Assembly: GCA_029560215.1 (NCBI GenBank)
Contig: JAKPZB010000091.1
Coordinates: 1 to 43,329, forward strand
DNA: 43,329 nucleotides
Reading direction: 5' to 3'
Source: Methanobacteriota archaeon
Lineage (GTDB): Archaea; Thermoplasmatota; Thermoplasmata; Methanomassiliicoccales; UBA472
In this document: one piece after another, positions 12,529 through 24,347 of the stretch
Position numbering within the stretch: position 1 is the first letter of the stretch
How the letters are laid out: each line of letters starts with the position of its first letter
Made by a program: the position numbers and the translations under genes
The notes under the pieces: model-generated
The model's database searches: none
Seen by the model: the letters and a program-made list of their open reading frames with translations, nothing else
Told to the model about the DNA's origin: nothing

Positions 12529-13176
12529 ATGAACTCCAGGGGCCTCATTCAGTGCGATAATCTTCGCAGCCAGCTAGGCGATGTCCCAGCACCGGGGCTC
12601 TATGTTCTGAACGTCAACTCCACGCATTTCGTGGTGGCGGAGCTGGTGCTGCTAAAAGCCCTCCTAGGCCATGGGAACCCCGGGCTGTTCGTATCCGTCG
12701 ATCGCCCGCACCAGTACATCGTTCATCTGCTGAAGATGCATGGGATCGCCCACGAAGGGCTGCGTTTCATCGACACCGTGTCCCGGTTCTCCCCCGGCGA
12801 GGCGAACCGCCGGGAGGGCATCGGTCTGATCAAAAATTCCAGCCACATCGACGAGCTGCCCGTGGCGCTCAGGGATTGTTCGTCCGTCCCAGGGGGCATC
12901 GACGTCTCCCAGCTGAGGTTCGCGATCATCGACAACGTTTCCATTTTGCTGATGTACAACAGCCATCGGGCCGTGGAGGGCTTCCTCCGGGATTTTACGC
13001 AGCTTCTCACCAGGAACGCGGCGGTGGTCTTGGTCATCAACCGGGAGAGGTATTCGGACCTGTACGCCACTGTCCTCTCGTTGGGGGCTGTGGAACTTGG
13101 TCTGGAATCCGAACAAGAGGGGGCGAACGGCGCCGTCCAATTCACAGAAGGCTTAAACTCAAGGAGGGGAAATTGA
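12529..13176 (+). CDS. RecA/KaiC-fold protein lacking the P-loop
   Basis: The 215-residue protein has the strand-helix order of a RecA/KaiC core. The strand G-L-Y-V-L-N-V followed by N-S-T-H-F-V-V-A-E-L stands where a Walker A motif should be, with no G-K-[ST]. The stretch R-F-A-I-I-D-N-V-S-I-L-L near residue 130 looks like a Walker-B-type strand. It is therefore probably an inactive paralog of the KaiC-like ATPase that starts 3 bases after its stop. The two probably act together, for instance as a regulatory and a catalytic subunit, but this is inference. Similar ATP-binding-deficient proteins occur beside archaeal signal-transduction genes. The start is the ATG at 12529 behind the TATA box. 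Confidence 0.65.
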   Translation: MNSRGLIQCDNLRSQLGDVPAPGLYVLNVNSTHFVVAELVLLKALLGHGNPGLFVSVDRPHQYIVHLLKMHGIAHEGLRFIDTVSRFSPGEANRREGIGLIKNSSHIDELPVALRDCSSVPGGIDVSQLRFAIIDNVSILLMYNSHRAVEGFLRDFTQLLTRNAAVVLVINRERYSDLYATVLSLGAVELGLESEQEGANGAVQFTEGLNSRRGN

Positions 13177-13178
13177 TC

Positions 13179-13880
13179 ATGGAGAAGGATAAGGTGCAAG
13201 GCGTGGAAATGGAAAGGATTCCTTCAGGCATACCTGGTCTGGATGAACTTATCGAAGGCGGATTTCCGTTTCCCTCGGTGATATTGGTATCAGGACCCAC
13301 AGGCACCGGGAAGACCACTTTCTGCCTGCGTTTCCTCTGCAAAGGCGCGGAACGGGGAGAGCGGGGGCTGTTCTTCACCACCCTGAGCGAATCAGTTCAT
13401 TGGATGCTTCGCTTCTCCTCTCAGCTCAGTTTCATGCACCCGGAGTACATCGACCAGGACATTGTGTATGTGGATTTGGGCGAACTGATAAGGTCCGGGG
13501 ACCACGACAAGATATTGGAGGCCATCGAGCGCAACATCGCGGAGGTCATGCCGCAGCGCATCGTCATCGACCCCATCACGGTGGTGGGGGACATGCTCAA
13601 GGAGGATTACCGCAGCTTCCTGTTCGACCTCGGCAACCGCCTCAAGCATTGGAACGCCACCACCCTGGTCACCGGGGAGGTCCATCCCGGCGAGCTGTAC
13701 CCTCCGGAGATAGCCTACACGGTGGATGGCATAGTCCTGCTGGTGGTGGATGATGAGCATGGAGACCGGCGCAAGTACCTGGAGGTGTTAAAGATGCGGG
13801 GGACCGCTCACAGCTCCGGAAGGCACTCCATAGACATCTCCCGCAAGGATGGATTGGTGGTCCTCAAGGCCAGGTTCTGA
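13179..13880 (+). CDS. Single-domain KaiC-like ATPase
   Basis: This 233-residue RecA-superfamily ATPase opens with the KaiC-type I-P-S-G-I-P-G-L-D-E-L-I-E-G-G (about residues 14-28). Walker A is G-P-T-G-T-G-K-T (39-46) and the Walker B strand is R-I-V-I-D-P near 127. The C-terminal R-K-Y-L-E-V-L-K-M-R-G is typical of the family. Archaeal single-domain KaiC proteins are thought to be signalling ATPases or regulators rather than clock proteins. The ATG at 13179 follows AAGGAGGGG and begins 3 bases after the preceding stop, so translation is coupled. A TTG at 13173 is an alternative. The usual catalytic Glu pair after strand 3 appears here as S-E-S, so ATPase activity may be weak. Confidence 0.9.
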   Translation: MEKDKVQGVEMERIPSGIPGLDELIEGGFPFPSVILVSGPTGTGKTTFCLRFLCKGAERGERGLFFTTLSESVHWMLRFSSQLSFMHPEYIDQDIVYVDLGELIRSGDHDKILEAIERNIAEVMPQRIVIDPITVVGDMLKEDYRSFLFDLGNRLKHWNATTLVTGEVHPGELYPPEIAYTVDGIVLLVVDDEHGDRRKYLEVLKMRGTAHSSGRHSIDISRKDGLVVLKARF

Positions 13881-18255: not shown

Positions 18256-19422
18256 ATGCAGCTCACCCCGGAAGAGCAGGCCATGCTGGCCGGCAAGGAA
18301 GGCAAGGCCAAGCGCAAGGCCATGGAGCTATTGGTGGCCTTGGGGGCCATATACGGCGCCGACCGCCTCGTACCCATCACCTCCGCCCACCTCTCCGGAG
18401 TGTCCTACAAGACCATAGGCGAGGGCGGGATCGATTTCCTGGAGGAGATGGCCGCCGACGGAAAGGTGGTCGTGCCCACCACCCTAAACCCCATGGGGAT
18501 GGACGGGGAGCGGTGGAAGGAGATGGGCGTGGACCAGCATTTCGCCGACCGGCAACTGCTCATCATATCGCTCTACGAAAAGATGGGCGTGGAGGTCAAC
18601 TGCACCTGCACCCCCTATCTGCTCACCAACCGGCCGAAGGTGGGGGACCACATCGCCTGGGCGGAATCTTCGGCGCTTTCCTTCGCCAATTCCGTGCTGG
18701 GCGCCCGCACCAACCGGGAAGGTGGCCCGGGAGCCCTGGCCGCGGCCATCACCGGGCGCACCCCCAACTACGGGCTGCATCTGGACCAGAACCGCAGGGC
18801 CACCCACGTGGTGGAGGTGGAAAAGGGGATAACCAAGGACGAGTGGTCCCTGGTCGGGCACGCCGTGGGAAGGAAACTGGGGGCCTGCATACCCTTCTTC
18901 CGCGGGCTCGGCAACGACGTGAACTGCCTCAAATCCCTGGCCGCGGCCATGGCCGCCGCTGGTTCGGTGGCCATGTTCATGGTGGAGAACGCCACCCCGG
19001 AGCAGCCTGATTCGCTCGAGGGGCTGCCGGTGGTCAAGATCACCCGCCAGGACATCGAGGACACCGTCAAGCGGCTGAGAACCGGGACCAAGCCGGACCT
19101 CATCGCCATAGGCTGCCCCCATCTCTCGGAGAGGGAGATGAAGGAGCTGGCCGGTTTCCTCGACGGCAAGAGGAAGAAAGGCGATGTGGAGGTCTGGTTC
19201 TGCACCTCCAAGGGCGTGTGGCTGCGCTGCCCCAAGGAGCGGGCGGTGCTGGAGCGCTTCGGCAAGGTGCTCTGCGACACCTGCATGGTGGTGGCGCCTA
19301 TCGAGGGGAAGCACAAGGTCACCGCCAGCGATTCCGCCAAGGCCTGCGCCTACCTTCCCGGGCTGTGCTCGCAGAAGGTGTATTGCGGTTCCCGGCGCGA
19401 ACTCATGGAGCTGATGCTGTGA
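18256..19422 (+). CDS. Phosphomevalonate dehydratase large subunit (aconitase X, DUF521)
   Basis: The 388-residue catalytic subunit of the aconitase-X family would dehydrate 5-phosphomevalonate to trans-anhydromevalonate 5-phosphate in the archaeal mevalonate pathway, using an iron-sulfur cluster. Visible family features are A-H-L-S-G-V-S-Y near residue 43, C-T-C-T-P-Y near 116, the active-site region E-S-S-A-L-S-F-A-N-S-V-L-G-A-R-T-N-R-E-G near 136-155, and later cysteines near 345-380. The ATG at 18256 gives a start typical of homologs (M-x-L-T-P-E-E). It is coupled to the small subunit by a GTGA overlap. cis-3-chloroacrylate or hydroxyproline-type AcnX activities are unlikely in this context. 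Confidence 0.88.
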   Translation: MQLTPEEQAMLAGKEGKAKRKAMELLVALGAIYGADRLVPITSAHLSGVSYKTIGEGGIDFLEEMAADGKVVVPTTLNPMGMDGERWKEMGVDQHFADRQLLIISLYEKMGVEVNCTCTPYLLTNRPKVGDHIAWAESSALSFANSVLGARTNREGGPGALAAAITGRTPNYGLHLDQNRRATHVVEVEKGITKDEWSLVGHAVGRKLGACIPFFRGLGNDVNCLKSLAAAMAAAGSVAMFMVENATPEQPDSLEGLPVVKITRQDIEDTVKRLRTGTKPDLIAIGCPHLSEREMKELAGFLDGKRKKGDVEVWFCTSKGVWLRCPKERAVLERFGKVLCDTCMVVAPIEGKHKVTASDSAKACAYLPGLCSQKVYCGSRRELMELML

Positions 19423-20192
19423 AGCTGAAAGGGCGGGAGATATTCAAGGGAAAGGCGATCGGACGGCTGCTGTTATTGGACGAACCGTTCAGCTTCCTGG
19501 GCGGGGTCGACCCGAAGACCGGGCTGCTGACGGTGGCCTCCGGGCGGGAAGGGGAGAACGTGGAGAACCGTATCCTGGTCTTCCCGTACGGCAAAGGCTC
19601 CACGGTCGGTTCGTACACCATCATGGACCTGAAGAAGAACGGACACCTGCCCGCGGCCATCGTCAACGCCCAGGCGGAGACGATAGTGGCCACCGGGGCG
19701 GTCATGGCCGGAGTGCCGATGATCGACTCCATCGACCTCTCCCTGCTCCGGGACGGCGACCGGGCAGTGGTGATCGGCGACGGATTGGACATGATGGACC
19801 TGGTGGAGAAGAGAGTGGTCACCTGCGTGCTGCGCCGTAAAGGGAAGATGCTGATACTGAAGCGCAGCCAGAAGGTCGGGACCAACAGAGGCAAGTGGGC
19901 CGCGGTGAGCGGCTACATCGAGCGCGGCGAGAGGCCGGAGGAGACCGCCCTGAAGGAGGTGGCCGAGGAGACCGGGATAACCACCGCCCGGCTTGAAGGC
20001 CGGGGAGAGACGCTGCGCATCCGGGACGGAACCTACGTTTGGAGCATCTATCCCTTCCTGTTCGAGGTGGGCGACGAGGAGGTCAAGCTGGACTGGGAGC
20101 ACACCGAGTGCGCCTGGGTGGAGGTCTCGGAGCTACAGGGCTACGACACCGTCCCCGGCTTCCTCAAGGTGCTGGGATCACTGGGACTATAG
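19419..20192 (+). CDS. Phosphomevalonate dehydratase small subunit (DUF126 swivel) fused to a Nudix hydrolase
   Basis: The 257-residue protein has two domains. Residues 1-127 are the aconitase-X swivel domain, with the catalytic-serine segment G-S-T-V-G-S-Y-T-I-M-D-L at 60-71 and the A-E-T-I-V-A-T-G-A-V stretch at 86-95. Residues 132-257 are a Nudix domain whose box fits G-x5-E-x7-[RK]-E-U-x-E-E-x-G-U exactly from Gly165 to Ile187, with Lys179 in place of Arg. The dehydratase small subunit is normally a stand-alone protein of about 130-150 residues. The start is GTG at 19419 within GTGA. The Nudix partner could hydrolyse a nucleotide or an isoprenoid diphosphate, and the fusion to a mevalonate enzyme favours a link to isopentenyl phosphate/diphosphate balance. 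That is inference. The 3' end overlaps ileS by 6 bases. Confidence 0.88.
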   Translation: MKLKGREIFKGKAIGRLLLLDEPFSFLGGVDPKTGLLTVASGREGENVENRILVFPYGKGSTVGSYTIMDLKKNGHLPAAIVNAQAETIVATGAVMAGVPMIDSIDLSLLRDGDRAVVIGDGLDMMDLVEKRVVTCVLRRKGKMLILKRSQKVGTNRGKWAAVSGYIERGERPEETALKEVAEETGITTARLEGRGETLRIRDGTYVWSIYPFLFEVGDEEVKLDWEHTECAWVEVSELQGYDTVPGFLKVLGSLGL

Positions 20193-23100
20193 CGTCCCGT
20201 CCACTTCCTTCTCCAGCAGGTTCAGCTCGTTGGCGTCCAGGGTGGAAGGGTTCAGCACCATCATCATGATGGAGTTGTTTATGGCCACCTGGTCCCTCAG
20301 CGACTGGACGAAGCGCAGCACGGTGAGGAAGTTGTTGTTGGTTATCAGGTACTCCAACCCATCCAGCAGCACCACGCCCTGCCCCTGGGTCAGGAACTGC
20401 TCGAGCGAGTAGTTCAGCTTCTCCAGGTCCTTGGGGCGCAGGCTGTCCTCCTTGCCCACGTTGCTCAGCCAAACGATCGGGGTCTCGCCCAGTTCGTACT
20501 TGCCGCGGATCTTCACCGGGTAGTTGCGGGTGATGCAGAATCCCCGCTTGCCCTTCTTCAACTGTTCCATGAACAGCTCGTACGAGCGGTCGGAACGGTC
20601 GTCCTTGATCAGGTAGCTGTATCCATCCTGCAGTCCCTGGACCTTGGGCGCTTCCGTTTCCTCCTCTACGACCTCCACCCGCAGCGAGGCGCCGCAGGAA
20701 GGGCAGTTCAGGTCCTTGGCGGATACCTCCCGCCCACACTTGGCGCAGGGGGTGCAGCGCTGGAAGCCTCCGTCGGCGATATACCTCAGTATCTCGTCGA
20801 TGGTCTTGCTCCCCAGCCCGGGGACGCTCTTCAGCTCTTCCCGGTCGGCCGCCTGCAGCCGGTCCAATGAATCGTATCCAGCATCGTATAGCATCTCTGC
20901 CTTGAGCTCGTTCATGCGCGGAATGCGCAAGAGGTAAGGCGCCATCTCCGCCTTGTCCATGGTCTTGCCGGTGCCCTCCGGGACGGCCTTGCAGACCTCG
21001 ACGGCGCGGTCGGAGTGGTGCAGCGCCCGGCGCACGTCGGCCTTGGGCAGCTTGGTCATCTCCTCGATCTTGTCCTCGCCCAACTGCTTCAGGTCGGCCT
21101 CGGTGCGAACCCCGGCGTCCACCAGGGCCTCGGCGGCCTTGGCGGTTATCCCGGGTATCTTGGCCAGCTCCTTGATGGAATCCTTCAGGTTCATGGAGGT
21201 GATGCCCATCTCCACTTTCTCCCCCTCGATCTCCCACTTGCCGACCTGGTCGCCGTGGACCTCCATCACCAGTTCCAGGGATTTGGAGCGCACCTCGGAC
21301 ATGATGTGCTGCTTCCACATCTTGATGTATTCCGCCAACTTCGCGTCGGCGCGGACCTCAACCTTGATGAACTCCTCGACGTCCAGCTTCATCTCCTTGC
21401 GGGTCTGCTGGATCCGGCGTATGATCTCCCGGGAGAACCCTTCCGCCTCGATCTCACGGGTGACCTCGAAGTCCAGGTAGAGCTCGCCGCCGCTGAATGT
21501 GGCGGCGTAGACGTCCTTGGGAAGGGAAACGGTGAAGGATACCATGTTCGGCTCGATCTTCACCAGCTGCCCCTCGATCCCCAGGGAATACTCGCCCCGC
21601 TGCATGCTCTCCTTGATCAGTCCGGCCGGCCGGCTCTGCAGCAGCACCGCGATCTTGGAGGCCCATTGCCGATACACCTTCCCGATGGCCATGGGGTTCG
21701 GCACGACGTTGAGAACGGTCTCCGACCACTCCTCGCCGGTGCCCACGTACTCGACCTCCTTGACATTGGCCTGGGACTTGAGAATGTCCTCCAGGGCGCG
21801 CAATGCGATAAGGGTGTCGTTGCTGTCGACCTTGATCACCACCCTTTTCATCGGCCAGCGCAGCTTGACGTTCTTCAGCTGTCTCTCCCGGGTGACCGTC
21901 TCCACGATCTCCTGGACCATGGACATGGCCTTCTCCAGGCGTTCGTCGACCTTGGTCAGGTCGCTGTTGGGCCAGTCCATCATGTGCACCGTCGGCTTGG
22001 AGCCGTCCATGTGCCGGTAGACCTCCTCGGCCAGATGCGGACATATCGGCGCCAGCAGCAGCGTGGTCTCCATTATCGCGTCGTATAGCGTGCGATAGGC
22101 GGCCAGCTTCCCGGCGTCACCCTCCTCGCTCCACATGCGGTCCCTGATCAATCGAACGTACCATCTCGACAGATCGTCCAGTATGTACTCTTCCAAGGCC
22201 CTTCCGGCCTTGTGCAGCTCCAGGGCGTTCACCTGGCGGGTGAACTCGTTCTTGAGCTTCTCGGTGCGGGAGATGAGCCAGATGTCCTCCTGTTTGAGAT
22301 GCGCGCGCACCGCCTCCTTGGTGATGCGCTGCGGCTCGAAGCGGTCGATGGCCATGTAGGTGGTGGCGAAGTTGACCACGTTCCAGAAGACGTTCAAGGT
22401 CTTGCGGGCGTTCTTCACCCCCTCCATCTGGAAGGGGATGTCCTCCCAAGGGGCGGAGGTCTTCAGCAGGTAGAAGCGAAGGGCGTCGGCCCCGTGCTCC
22501 TTGATGACCTTGCCCGGCTCGACCACGTTGCCCTTGCTCTTGGACATGGGCTGGCCTTGGCCGTCCAGCATCCATCCGTGCATCAGCACCGATTCGTATG
22601 GAGCGCGTCCGAAGGCGATCACGCCCGCGGCGAGCTGCGAATAGAACCATCCCCTGGTCTGATCGTGAGCTTCGACGATGAACTTGGCCGGCCAGAGCCG
22701 CTCGAAAGCGTCCCGCCTCTTGGGGAATCCCAGCTGCGCCCACGAGGCCACGGCCGAATCGAACCAAACGTCCAGAACGTCCGGCACCCGGCTCATCTTG
22801 CCCCCGCACTTGGGGCAGACCAGCTTGACGGAGTCTATCCAGGGGCGGTGAAGCTCCATGTCCTCCACGTAGCCTTCGGCTCCCTTGAGCTCGTCGGTCA
22901 TGCCCACCACCCGTATCTCTCCGCAGGAACAGGTCCAGACCGGGATGGGTATGCCCCAGTACCTCTGCCGGGAGATGCACCAGTCGCGGGCGTTCATGGC
23001 CCAGTCGTATTCGCGGGAGGACCCGGCCCAGTCCGGGGTCCAGCGGACCTTCTCGATCTCCTCCAGCATCTGGTTCTTGACCTGGGTGACCCGCAGGAAC

Positions 23101-24347
23101 CACTGGTCGGTGGTTCGGAATAGAACGGGAGATTTACAACGCCAGCAGTGGCCGAAACGGTGTTCGATGGTGCCGCTGAAGAACAAGCGGTCGTTGGCCT
23201 CCAGGTCCTTGAGCAGCTCCGGATTGGCCTTCTTTATGTGCATGCCGACGTACTTGCTTCCCACCAGCGGGGTGTACACCCCGGCCTCGTCGACCGGGCA
23301 GAAGGGCTCGAGCCCGAACTCCTTGCCCAGCTCGAAGTCCTCCGGGCCGTGGCCGGGGGCGATGTGCACCAGTCCGGTGTTGGAGGCCTCCACGTTCTTG
23401 GAGGGAAGGACCTTGTGCAGCCATTTTCCAGTGGCCTGCGCCTGATAGGGGACCATGTCGATGAAGGGGGTTATGTACTCCACTCCGACCAGGTCGTCGC
23501 CCTGGATGGTCTGGAGCACCTCATACTTCTCCCAGCCTCCCAGGTCCTTGATCTCCTCCTCCAGCCCCTTCATGATGATGACCGTGTCGGTGACCCCGAT
23601 GCGCCGGTAGCGCACCTTGACGTATTCGAAATCGGGGTGAGCGGCCACCGCCAGGTTGGCCGGCAACGTCCAGGGAGTGGTGGTCCAGATCAAGAGCGAG
23701 ACCTTGGGGTCGTCCTTCAGTCGGAACTTGACGTAGATCGAAGGGTCCTTCTCGTCCCAATAGTCGATCTCCGCCTCGGCCAGGGCGGTCTCGCAGCGCG
23801 GGCAGCCCGGAAGCACCCGGCTGGCCTTGATCAGAAGTCCTTTGTCGTAAGCGCGCTTGAGCGTCCACCAGGCCGCTTCTATGTAGCCCGGGGCGATGGT
23901 GAGGTACGGTCTATCCCAATCGAACCACACGCCCAGCTCTTTGAAGTCGGCGTTCATCTGCTTCTGGAAGTCCAGGGCGAAGTTCTTGCACGTACCGACG
24001 AAGCGGTCGATGCCGTACTCCTCGATCTCCTTCTTGTTCTTCACGCCTATGGACTTCTCCACCTTGACCTCGATGGGTAGCCCATGCATGTCGTAGCCAG
24101 GAGTATCGCTCACGTTGAACTTCTGCATGCGCTTGAACCGGACGATCATGTCCTTGATGGTCTTGTTCATCGCTGTGCCAAGGTGGATGTATCCAGTGGT
24201 GTAGGGAGGACCGTCCACGAAATAGAAGTCCGGGCCGGAGGCCCTGAGTTCCTTGGTCTTCTTGTACGCGTCGGTCTCCGCCCAAAGGGCCTGCACCGAC
24301 CTTTCCAGCGCGCTAGGGTTATAACTGCCTTGGACCTGCTTTATCAT
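20187..24347 (-). CDS. ileS: Isoleucyl-tRNA synthetase with C-terminal HhH, zinc-ribbon and DUF835 domains
   Basis: One uninterrupted 1386-codon frame. Residues 1 to about 1048 are an archaeal/eukaryotic-type IleRS: HIGH-like H-L-G-T at 55-58, the editing domain around 200-400, W-C-I-S-R-Q-R-Y-W-G at 456-465, M-S-K-S-K at 601-605, and the anticodon-binding region around 660-830. The normal enzyme ends near 1050. The extra ~340 residues comprise two helix-hairpin-helix units (about 1054-1110 with I-P-G-I, and 1137-1193 with V-P-G-L-G), a zinc ribbon with cysteines 1201, 1204, 1215 and 1218, and a DUF835 domain (1241-1386) ending near L-L-D-G-L-E-Y-L-I. DUF835 resembles a P-loop-less RecA/KaiC-type fold and is usual in archaeal regulatory proteins. 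The 3' end overlaps the Nudix fusion gene by 6 bases. Confidence 0.93.
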   Translation of the reverse strand: MIKQVQGSYNPSALERSVQALWAETDAYKKTKELRASGPDFYFVDGPPYTTGYIHLGTAMNKTIKDMIVRFKRMQKFNVSDTPGYDMHGLPIEVKVEKSIGVKNKKEIEEYGIDRFVGTCKNFALDFQKQMNADFKELGVWFDWDRPYLTIAPGYIEAAWWTLKRAYDKGLLIKASRVLPGCPRCETALAEAEIDYWDEKDPSIYVKFRLKDDPKVSLLIWTTTPWTLPANLAVAAHPDFEYVKVRYRRIGVTDTVIIMKGLEEEIKDLGGWEKYEVLQTIQGDDLVGVEYITPFIDMVPYQAQATGKWLHKVLPSKNVEASNTGLVHIAPGHGPEDFELGKEFGLEPFCPVDEAGVYTPLVGSKYVGMHIKKANPELLKDLEANDRLFFSGTIEHRFGHCWRCKSPVLFRTTDQWFLRVTQVKNQMLEEIEKVRWTPDWAGSSREYDWAMNARDWCISRQRYWGIPIPVWTCSCGEIRVVGMTDELKGAEGYVEDMELHRPWIDSVKLVCPKCGGKMSRVPDVLDVWFDSAVASWAQLGFPKRRDAFERLWPAKFIVEAHDQTRGWFYSQLAAGVIAFGRAPYESVLMHGWMLDGQGQPMSKSKGNVVEPGKVIKEHGADALRFYLLKTSAPWEDIPFQMEGVKNARKTLNVFWNVVNFATTYMAIDRFEPQRITKEAVRAHLKQEDIWLISRTEKLKNEFTRQVNALELHKAGRALEEYILDDLSRWYVRLIRDRMWSEEGDAGKLAAYRTLYDAIMETTLLLAPICPHLAEEVYRHMDGSKPTVHMMDWPNSDLTKVDERLEKAMSMVQEIVETVTRERQLKNVKLRWPMKRVVIKVDSNDTLIALRALEDILKSQANVKEVEYVGTGEEWSETVLNVVPNPMAIGKVYRQWASKIAVLLQSRPAGLIKESMQRGEYSLGIEGQLVKIEPNMVSFTVSLPKDVYAATFSGGELYLDFEVTREIEAEGFSREIIRRIQQTRKEMKLDVEEFIKVEVRADAKLAEYIKMWKQHIMSEVRSKSLELVMEVHGDQVGKWEIEGEKVEMGITSMNLKDSIKELAKIPGITAKAAEALVDAGVRTEADLKQLGEDKIEEMTKLPKADVRRALHHSDRAVEVCKAVPEGTGKTMDKAEMAPYLLRIPRMNELKAEMLYDAGYDSLDRLQAADREELKSVPGLGSKTIDEILRYIADGGFQRCTPCAKCGREVSAKDLNCPSCGASLRVEVVEEETEAPKVQGLQDGYSYLIKDDRSDRSYELFMEQLKKGKRGFCITRNYPVKIRGKYELGETPIVWLSNVGKEDSLRPKDLEKLNYSLEQFLTQGQGVVLLDGLEYLITNNNFLTVLRFVQSLRDQVAINNSIMMMVLNPSTLDANELNLLEKEVDGTL

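Follow-up and report, generated by a model that had tools for sequence, protein, structure and literature searches.

The stretch of DNA analysed here (the window, 43,329 nucleotides) belongs to a member of the order Methanomassiliicoccales, class Thermoplasmata, and comes from a 1.37 Mb MAG that is 83% complete and lies in 160 contigs. On the minus strand, a 1386-aa frame runs without interruption from an ATG at 24347 to a stop at 20187-20189 (Table 1). Its first three quarters match the isoleucyl-tRNA synthetase (IleRS) equivalog profile TIGR00392 at 942 bits (cut-off 621; residues 6-845), and Pfam places Anticodon_1 at residues 688-837 and DUF5915 at 853-1050. Like the archaeal IleRS described by this profile, the protein has all of the catalytic, editing, anticodon-binding and C-terminal domains. 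In a motif alignment its catalytic motifs are intact (PPYTTGYIHLGT, GQPMSKSKGN), with HLGT as the HIGH-type motif and MSKSKGN as the KMSKS-type motif. A search of the 83%-complete MAG found no second IleRS; as the only IleRS found in its genome, the protein is presumed to charge tRNA-Ile with isoleucine.

To these archaeal IleRS domains the protein adds a 336-aa tail made up of helix-hairpin-helix (HhH) units, a zinc ribbon and a DUF835 domain. The first HhH unit is matched by Pfam over about residues 1056-1100, the second (HHH_5) over 1138-1188, and DUF835 (PF05763) scores 118.8 bits against a gathering cut-off of 33.1 over residues 1251-1381. Cysteines 1201, 1204, 1215 and 1218 form the putative zinc-binding ribbon; they are kept in most of the order and are missing or moved in L032, L035 and L052. 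The first-pass annotation had described a complete IleRS, two HhH units, a four-cysteine ribbon and DUF835 in a single frame, and both the frame and the profile matches bear this out. Convergent with the IleRS gene is a gene, conserved across the order, in which an AcnX swivel domain is fused to a NUDIX domain.

Table 1. The tailed IleRS gene, its domains, and other genes of the window named in the text.
Feature	Position	Strand	Basis
Tailed IleRS gene, 1386 aa	20187..24347	-	Open frame; TIGR00392 942 bits
IleRS proper, residues 1-1050: catalytic core, CP1 editing, anticodon-binding, DUF5915 C-terminal domain	21198..24347	-	Pfam/NCBIfam, motif alignment
First HhH unit, about residues 1056-1110	21018..21182	-	Weak Pfam matches; family profile 8e-30
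Second HhH unit (HhH2), HHH_5 type, GLGSKT motif, residues 1138-1190	20778..20936	-	PF14520 61 bits; AF2 pLDDT about 90
Four-cysteine zinc ribbon (putative), CAKC...CPSC, residues 1201-1218	20694..20747	-	Order-level conservation of four Cys
DUF835, residues 1249-1386, predicted RecA/KaiC fold without P-loop	20190..20603	-	PF05763, invariant columns, Foldseek to FlaH/PH0284
AcnX swivel-NUDIX gene	19338-20192	+	
KaiC ATPase gene	13158-13880	+	PF06745
215-aa gene	12529-13176	+	No Pfam match

Distribution and origin of the fusion

The fusion of IleRS to HhH units, ribbon and DUF835 is confirmed as genuine, being neither an artefact nor private to the window. Wherever a genome of the same genus has the gene within a single contig, the fusion is unbroken (84-94% identity). 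These uninterrupted frames exclude the missed stop or frameshift near position 21200 against which the first-pass annotation had cautioned. The same annotation had asked whether the fusion is conserved in a clade or confined to the window, and tailed orthologues were found throughout the class, in 23 of the 27 families of Thermoplasmata sampled (f1-f27). Among 61 near genomes, f1 has the fusion wherever its gene is complete, as do f3, f4, f5 and a large part of f6. Sampling 141 genomes across the class added f7, f8, f9, f10, f11, f13, f14, f16, f17, f19, f20, f22, f23, f25, f26 and f27, and two genomes of f12 carry strongly eroded tailed IleRS. Tailed IleRS are absent from the sampled members of f15, f18, f21 and f24 and from the other classes of the phylum examined, and no genome searched outside the class had one. 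Of 80 loci recovered from named genomes, every one that extends sufficiently upstream has IleRS fused to DUF835, apart from L205, a stand-alone DUF835 copy. The names give the window's order as Methanomassiliicoccales, and the rest are nearly all Thermoplasmatota.

Because the source MAG is fragmented (160 contigs), the fusion might be suspected of being an error of assembly or gene calling, or a chance read-through. We consider such an explanation extremely improbable: the same frame occurs in all intact same-genus genomes and in many families, both the junction and the tail are under purifying selection, and the fusion recurs among dozens of independently assembled genomes. The idea was rejected after the near-genome and named-genome searches had both recovered the fusion.

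The tailed IleRS has a single origin on the tree, with losses later. In an IleRS tree of 89 rows every tailed protein lies on one branch (99% SH-aLRT), with support of 96/97 when the most diverged rows are removed; the untailed archaeal-type IleRS from f21 and from other classes lie outside it. Tail-less IleRS occur as sole copies in f2, f6 and f21, and the losses in the first two are nested within their families. The gene order FEN1-IleRS-AcnX does not differ between tailed and tail-less genomes, and therefore the tail was lost from the orthologous gene. The untailed second IleRS of many relatives belongs to a separate bacterial/eukaryote-like clade with PPTANGxPHxGH motifs. One f2 genome that retains a tail (G054, with a DUF835 36% identical) was considered as an independent fusion and rejected; because it is basal in f2 and has a weak first HhH unit, its tail is taken as a diverged remnant of the same fusion.

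A tree of DUF835 sequences sets the IleRS-type domains apart from those of REC type (96/96), and a profile of the IleRS tails scores these at 200 bits or more and other DUF835 at up to about 162. Strict monophyly of the IleRS-tail DUF835 was not recovered, because L205 and stand-alone copies of f5 fall inside the group; a single clade is not rejected (p-AU 0.30). These stand-alone genes (L251-L255 in f5, and L205) are small frames of 152-221 aa that group with the IleRS tails, as though the domain had broken away from the enzyme. A DUF835 gene about 10 kb from the IleRS in f2 was examined as a split-off tail and rejected as a decayed REC-DUF835. In L246-L249 of that family, the sole remaining DUF835 gene, about 8-15 kb from the IleRS, is a decayed REC-DUF835 resembling a response regulator. 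Other families and classes also have large DUF835 proteins (L266, L267, L269, L282-L285), which are not further synthetase fusions.

Constraint and predicted fold of the tail

DUF835 is the one tail element common to nearly all tailed IleRS; HhH units and ribbons may be absent and differ in number and order. Across 23 proteins from diverse families the domain has 23 invariant and 26 nearly invariant columns. Within the genus its pN/pS equals that of the IleRS core (0.14 for each); the C-terminal domain of IleRS has 0.19, and the stretches of HhH, linker and ribbon have 0.24-0.45. L052 has lost HhH2 and the ribbon and kept DUF835, the ribbon has moved in L032, and in f11 (L090, L091, L093) all HhH units are gone and DUF835 is retained. 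Conversely, f13 has extra copies of the HhH/ribbon units. The tails of L096-L100 and L103 (f13 and f17) measure 690 to more than 1700 aa and repeat the HhH/zinc-ribbon unit, and L103 adds TPR repeats.

AF2 modelled the tail with well-formed HhH and DUF835 domains (mean pLDDT 84, pTM 0.47) and residues 640-1386 with a pTM of 0.53. Both pTM values are low, so the models do not fix how the tail packs against the synthetase and show it as domains on flexible links. Foldseek matched the tail model to Rad51/RadA across its HhH and RecA-fold parts, a likeness that holds per domain because the multi-domain alignments have large rmsd. The DUF835 model aligned with the KaiC-family proteins FlaH and PH0284 at 3.3-3.9 A, and the predicted RecA-type fold has Foldseek E values of about 1e-5 to FlaH, PH0284 and Rad51. 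As modelled, the tail thus resembles RadA/Rad51 recombinases and KaiC-family ATPases in having HHH_5 followed by a RecA-type fold; it differs from them in that the P-loop is lacking and the KaiC-like domain sits on an aaRS. The Walker A motif GxxxxGK[ST] is absent from DUF835, whose first strand-helix reads YLIKDDRSDRSYELF. A PDB sequence search found no chain matching DUF835, for which no structure has been solved, and the literature searched gives no tested function for any DUF835.

Tailed copies with altered active sites

The survival of the tail after the catalytic site in several lineages, which the first-pass annotation missed, is the most informative fact about it. Many relatives have two IleRS, and in nearly all such genomes one copy alone has a canonical active site. 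When 71 genomes were checked for a second IleRS, two were found in f8, f9, f10, f13, f17, f23, f27 and three of the four genomes of f19, and one in nearly all the others. In G145 (f26) the two hits are pieces of a single gene; the tailed copies of G064 and G149 fell below the threshold of this search and were read separately, as L108 and L107, respectively. The tailed copies of f9, f10, f13, f17, f23 and f27 have lost KMSKS, and their HIGH motif or DQTRGWF block is altered or gone; the untailed bacterial-type IleRS of these genomes is canonical. The pattern is reversed in f8, where KMSKS is altered in nine untailed copies and the tailed ones are canonical. These untailed bacterial-type pseudo-IleRS (L114, L207-L214) have no DUF835 and are a mirror image of the tailed pseudo-synthetases. 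Exactly one unaltered KMSKS-type motif is present in each of the 24 genomes of f8, f9, f10, f13, f17, f23 and f27 in which both copies were read.

The situation in f19 calls for care in reading motifs: LSKS and a changed DQTRGWF block are found in the tailed copy, and a GVHH signature in the other. Archaeal IleRS with GVHH or GIHH in place of HIGH were seen in f19 (L220-L222) and in L245. GXHH is the signature of IleRS2, active enzymes of bacterial mupirocin hyper-resistance (PMC10485003). An altered HIGH motif was for this reason rejected as the sole criterion of a dead enzyme, and loss of activity was judged on HIGH and KMSKS jointly.

The tailed copies of f12 (L268:1046-5173 and L281:955-5124, both on the plus strand; 1376 and 1390 aa) are eroded further than the other decayed copies. 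Their catalytic half is eroded, HhH and DUF835 are kept, and matches persist for CP1 and for the anticodon/C-terminal part. In the decayed tailed copies Pfam continues to identify class I synthetase, Anticodon_1, DUF5915, HHH_5 and DUF835. The editing-site motifs WTTTPW and GHGxED are lost as well in f9, f10 and f27, and no conserved substitute motif was seen in the decayed tailed copies.

These decayed copies are not pseudogenes: their frames are full-length and their pN/pS of 0.07-0.48 indicates purifying selection, the values for decayed pairs being rough since synonymous sites are near saturation. DUF835 has the lowest pN/pS in the decayed copies of f23 (0.02) and of f10 g49 (0.15); in f10 g36 its constraint does not exceed that of the core. 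Between the window protein and L107 and L109, DUF835 is 51% and 49% identical, compared with 22-25% for two catalytic segments. The exception is f9, in which the DUF835 of the tailed copy is strongly diverged (L105) or undetected (L106). Since tailed pseudo-synthetases are under purifying selection with DUF835 usually the best kept part, the tail is selected for a role other than charging. Its retention after loss of the active site in several lineages makes a second job besides protein synthesis very likely, and we are nearly certain that the tail has a separately selected, non-catalytic function.

Judged from motifs, the arrangement resembles HisZ and the LeuRS-I of Sulfolobaceae, where one synthetase copy lacks aminoacylation and another retains it. 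Other aaRS paralogues with new functions include the IleRS homologue SbzA (PMC9437257) and the duplicated IleRS1/IleRS2 (PMC10485003). Unlike in all of these, the decayed copy here bears a KaiC-like tail that is also found on motif-intact, sole-copy synthetases, so that both stages can be compared. Because many would-be IleRS of the class have no recognisable active site, homology-based annotation of IleRS is unsafe there.

Possible roles of the tail

In published work on archaeal response regulators, DUF835 figures as an output domain that occurs joined to response-regulator (REC) and PAS domains (REC-DUF835, REC-PAS-DUF835) and is classed as an inactivated KaiC (PMC5847659). That paper, the only one naming DUF835 or PF05763 in the full-text literature searched, concerns no synthetases. 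The IleRS tail shares the domain family of these regulators, PF05763, and differs from REC-DUF835 proteins in having neither a REC nor a PAS partner and in forming a separate DUF835 branch. REC-DUF835 is also encoded in the window genome. The first-pass annotation had linked DUF835 and HhH domains to archaeal signalling and KaiC-like proteins, a link that holds up in the published REC/PAS fusions (PMC5847659), in the REC-DUF835 of this genome and in the RadA/Rad51/KaiC-like model of the tail.

The number of DUF835 genes per genome varies with the tail. Tail carriers of the order have 6-13, tail-less f2 genomes 0-1, and tail-less f6 genomes 2, 3 and 5 at comparable genome size and completeness; G054, the f2 genome that kept its tail, has 2. 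The f18 genomes have neither a strong DUF835 match nor a tail, and in f21 and in other classes DUF835 genes occur where no IleRS is tailed. The co-loss of the tail and other DUF835 genes in f2 and part of f6 fits a joint role and is not proof of one; it may not be causal, because it tracks phylogeny and host association.

We propose that an ancestor of the class added a C-terminal docking arm to a working IleRS. In this arm, HhH and zinc-ribbon modules would act as spacers ahead of DUF835, a RecA/KaiC fold that would have lost its ATP-binding loop and serve as a protein-protein module binding KaiC-type proteins or further proteins with DUF835. This would couple the synthetase, or its state (isoleucine present, tRNA-Ile bound), to DUF835/KaiC signal transduction. 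Methanomassiliicoccales would keep both jobs in one polypeptide; in other families a bacterial-type IleRS would have taken over charging, leaving the tailed copy with the second job only, as a pseudo-synthetase. Domain family, predicted fold and co-loss point to docking of this kind, and we give an even chance to the view that the tail docks IleRS into a DUF835/KaiC signalling network. A more tentative suggestion is that the tailed IleRS is a sensor of amino-acid or tRNA status, reporting uncharged tRNA-Ile or isoleucine supply into that network; it would be a bifunctional enzyme and sensor in Methanomassiliicoccales and purely a pseudo-synthetase sensor where a bacterial-type IleRS does the charging. 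The nature of the signal, isoleucine or tRNA-Ile status, is speculative.

The conserved parts of the tail also bear on other explanations. HHH_5 units and zinc ribbons are typical nucleic-acid modules, and some families multiply them (L098, L100, L103), as might be expected of an arm that grips RNA and raises the affinity for tRNA-Ile, in the manner of domains appended to other aaRS, with DUF835 as a structural cap. However, it is DUF835 and not HhH that is conserved, HhH2 is acidic (pI 4.9), f11 has DUF835 without any HhH, the tail is retained on copies lacking the motifs needed for tRNA charging, and f2, f6 and f21 manage with a tail-less sole copy. These observations make an arm of this sort unlikely. 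The first-pass suggestion that the tail could bind DNA or RNA is likewise weakened, the HhH and ribbon stretches being the least conserved. Self-association is common to RecA-fold proteins, and with its RecA/Rad51-like fold DUF835 might act in a purely quaternary way, building an IleRS oligomer or a tailed/untailed heteromer without signalling; genomes with one decayed copy do resemble pairs of catalytic and non-catalytic subunits. Alone, however, this does not account for the parallel drop in other DUF835 genes on tail loss, and in f8 decay went the other way, KMSKS being altered in the untailed copy. It too seems rather improbable.

A change of reaction appears much less probable still. Tailed pseudo-synthetases might transfer isoleucine to a non-tRNA acceptor or edit in trans, with the tail positioning the reaction; an IleRS homologue with another acceptor exists (SbzA, PMC9437257), and the f12 pseudo-copies keep CP1 and anticodon/C-terminal matches despite their eroded catalytic half. 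Against this, the loss of WTTTPW and GHGxED extends over f9, f10 and f27 with no conserved substitute motif seen.

A search of full-text, mostly open-access literature found no description of a fused archaeal IleRS; one may nevertheless have been published. To our knowledge, no archaeal counterpart to the main amino-acid starvation sensors has been described, and KaiC/DUF835 proteins are proposed signalling hubs for which we know of almost no inputs. An essential synthetase with DUF835, together with relatives that keep its non-catalytic half only, offers a direct handle on both starvation sensing and KaiC/DUF835 inputs. If the sensor reading is true, the tailed IleRS would be the archaeal counterpart, in logic, of synthetase-derived starvation sensors.

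Other KaiC and DUF835 genes were noted along the way. The first-pass annotation had offered the KaiC-like pair at 12.5-13.9 kb of the window as a partner of the tail. The KaiC ATPase gene there, preceded by the 215-aa gene (Table 1), lies upstream of an H+-pyrophosphatase gene, and the same KaiC-HPPase pair is found in L264. Because the KaiC gene stands beside the pyrophosphatase and has no special linkage to IleRS, it offers no evidence for a partner; a KaiC-IleRS linkage was rejected, as KaiC pairs with H+-pyrophosphatase and FEN1-IleRS-AcnX synteny is independent of the tail. Two DUF835 genes lying within about 1 kb of each other on opposite strands form a pair that recurs across families (L060/L062 on contig C91 of G000, with similar pairs in G004, G025, G028, G029 and G043).
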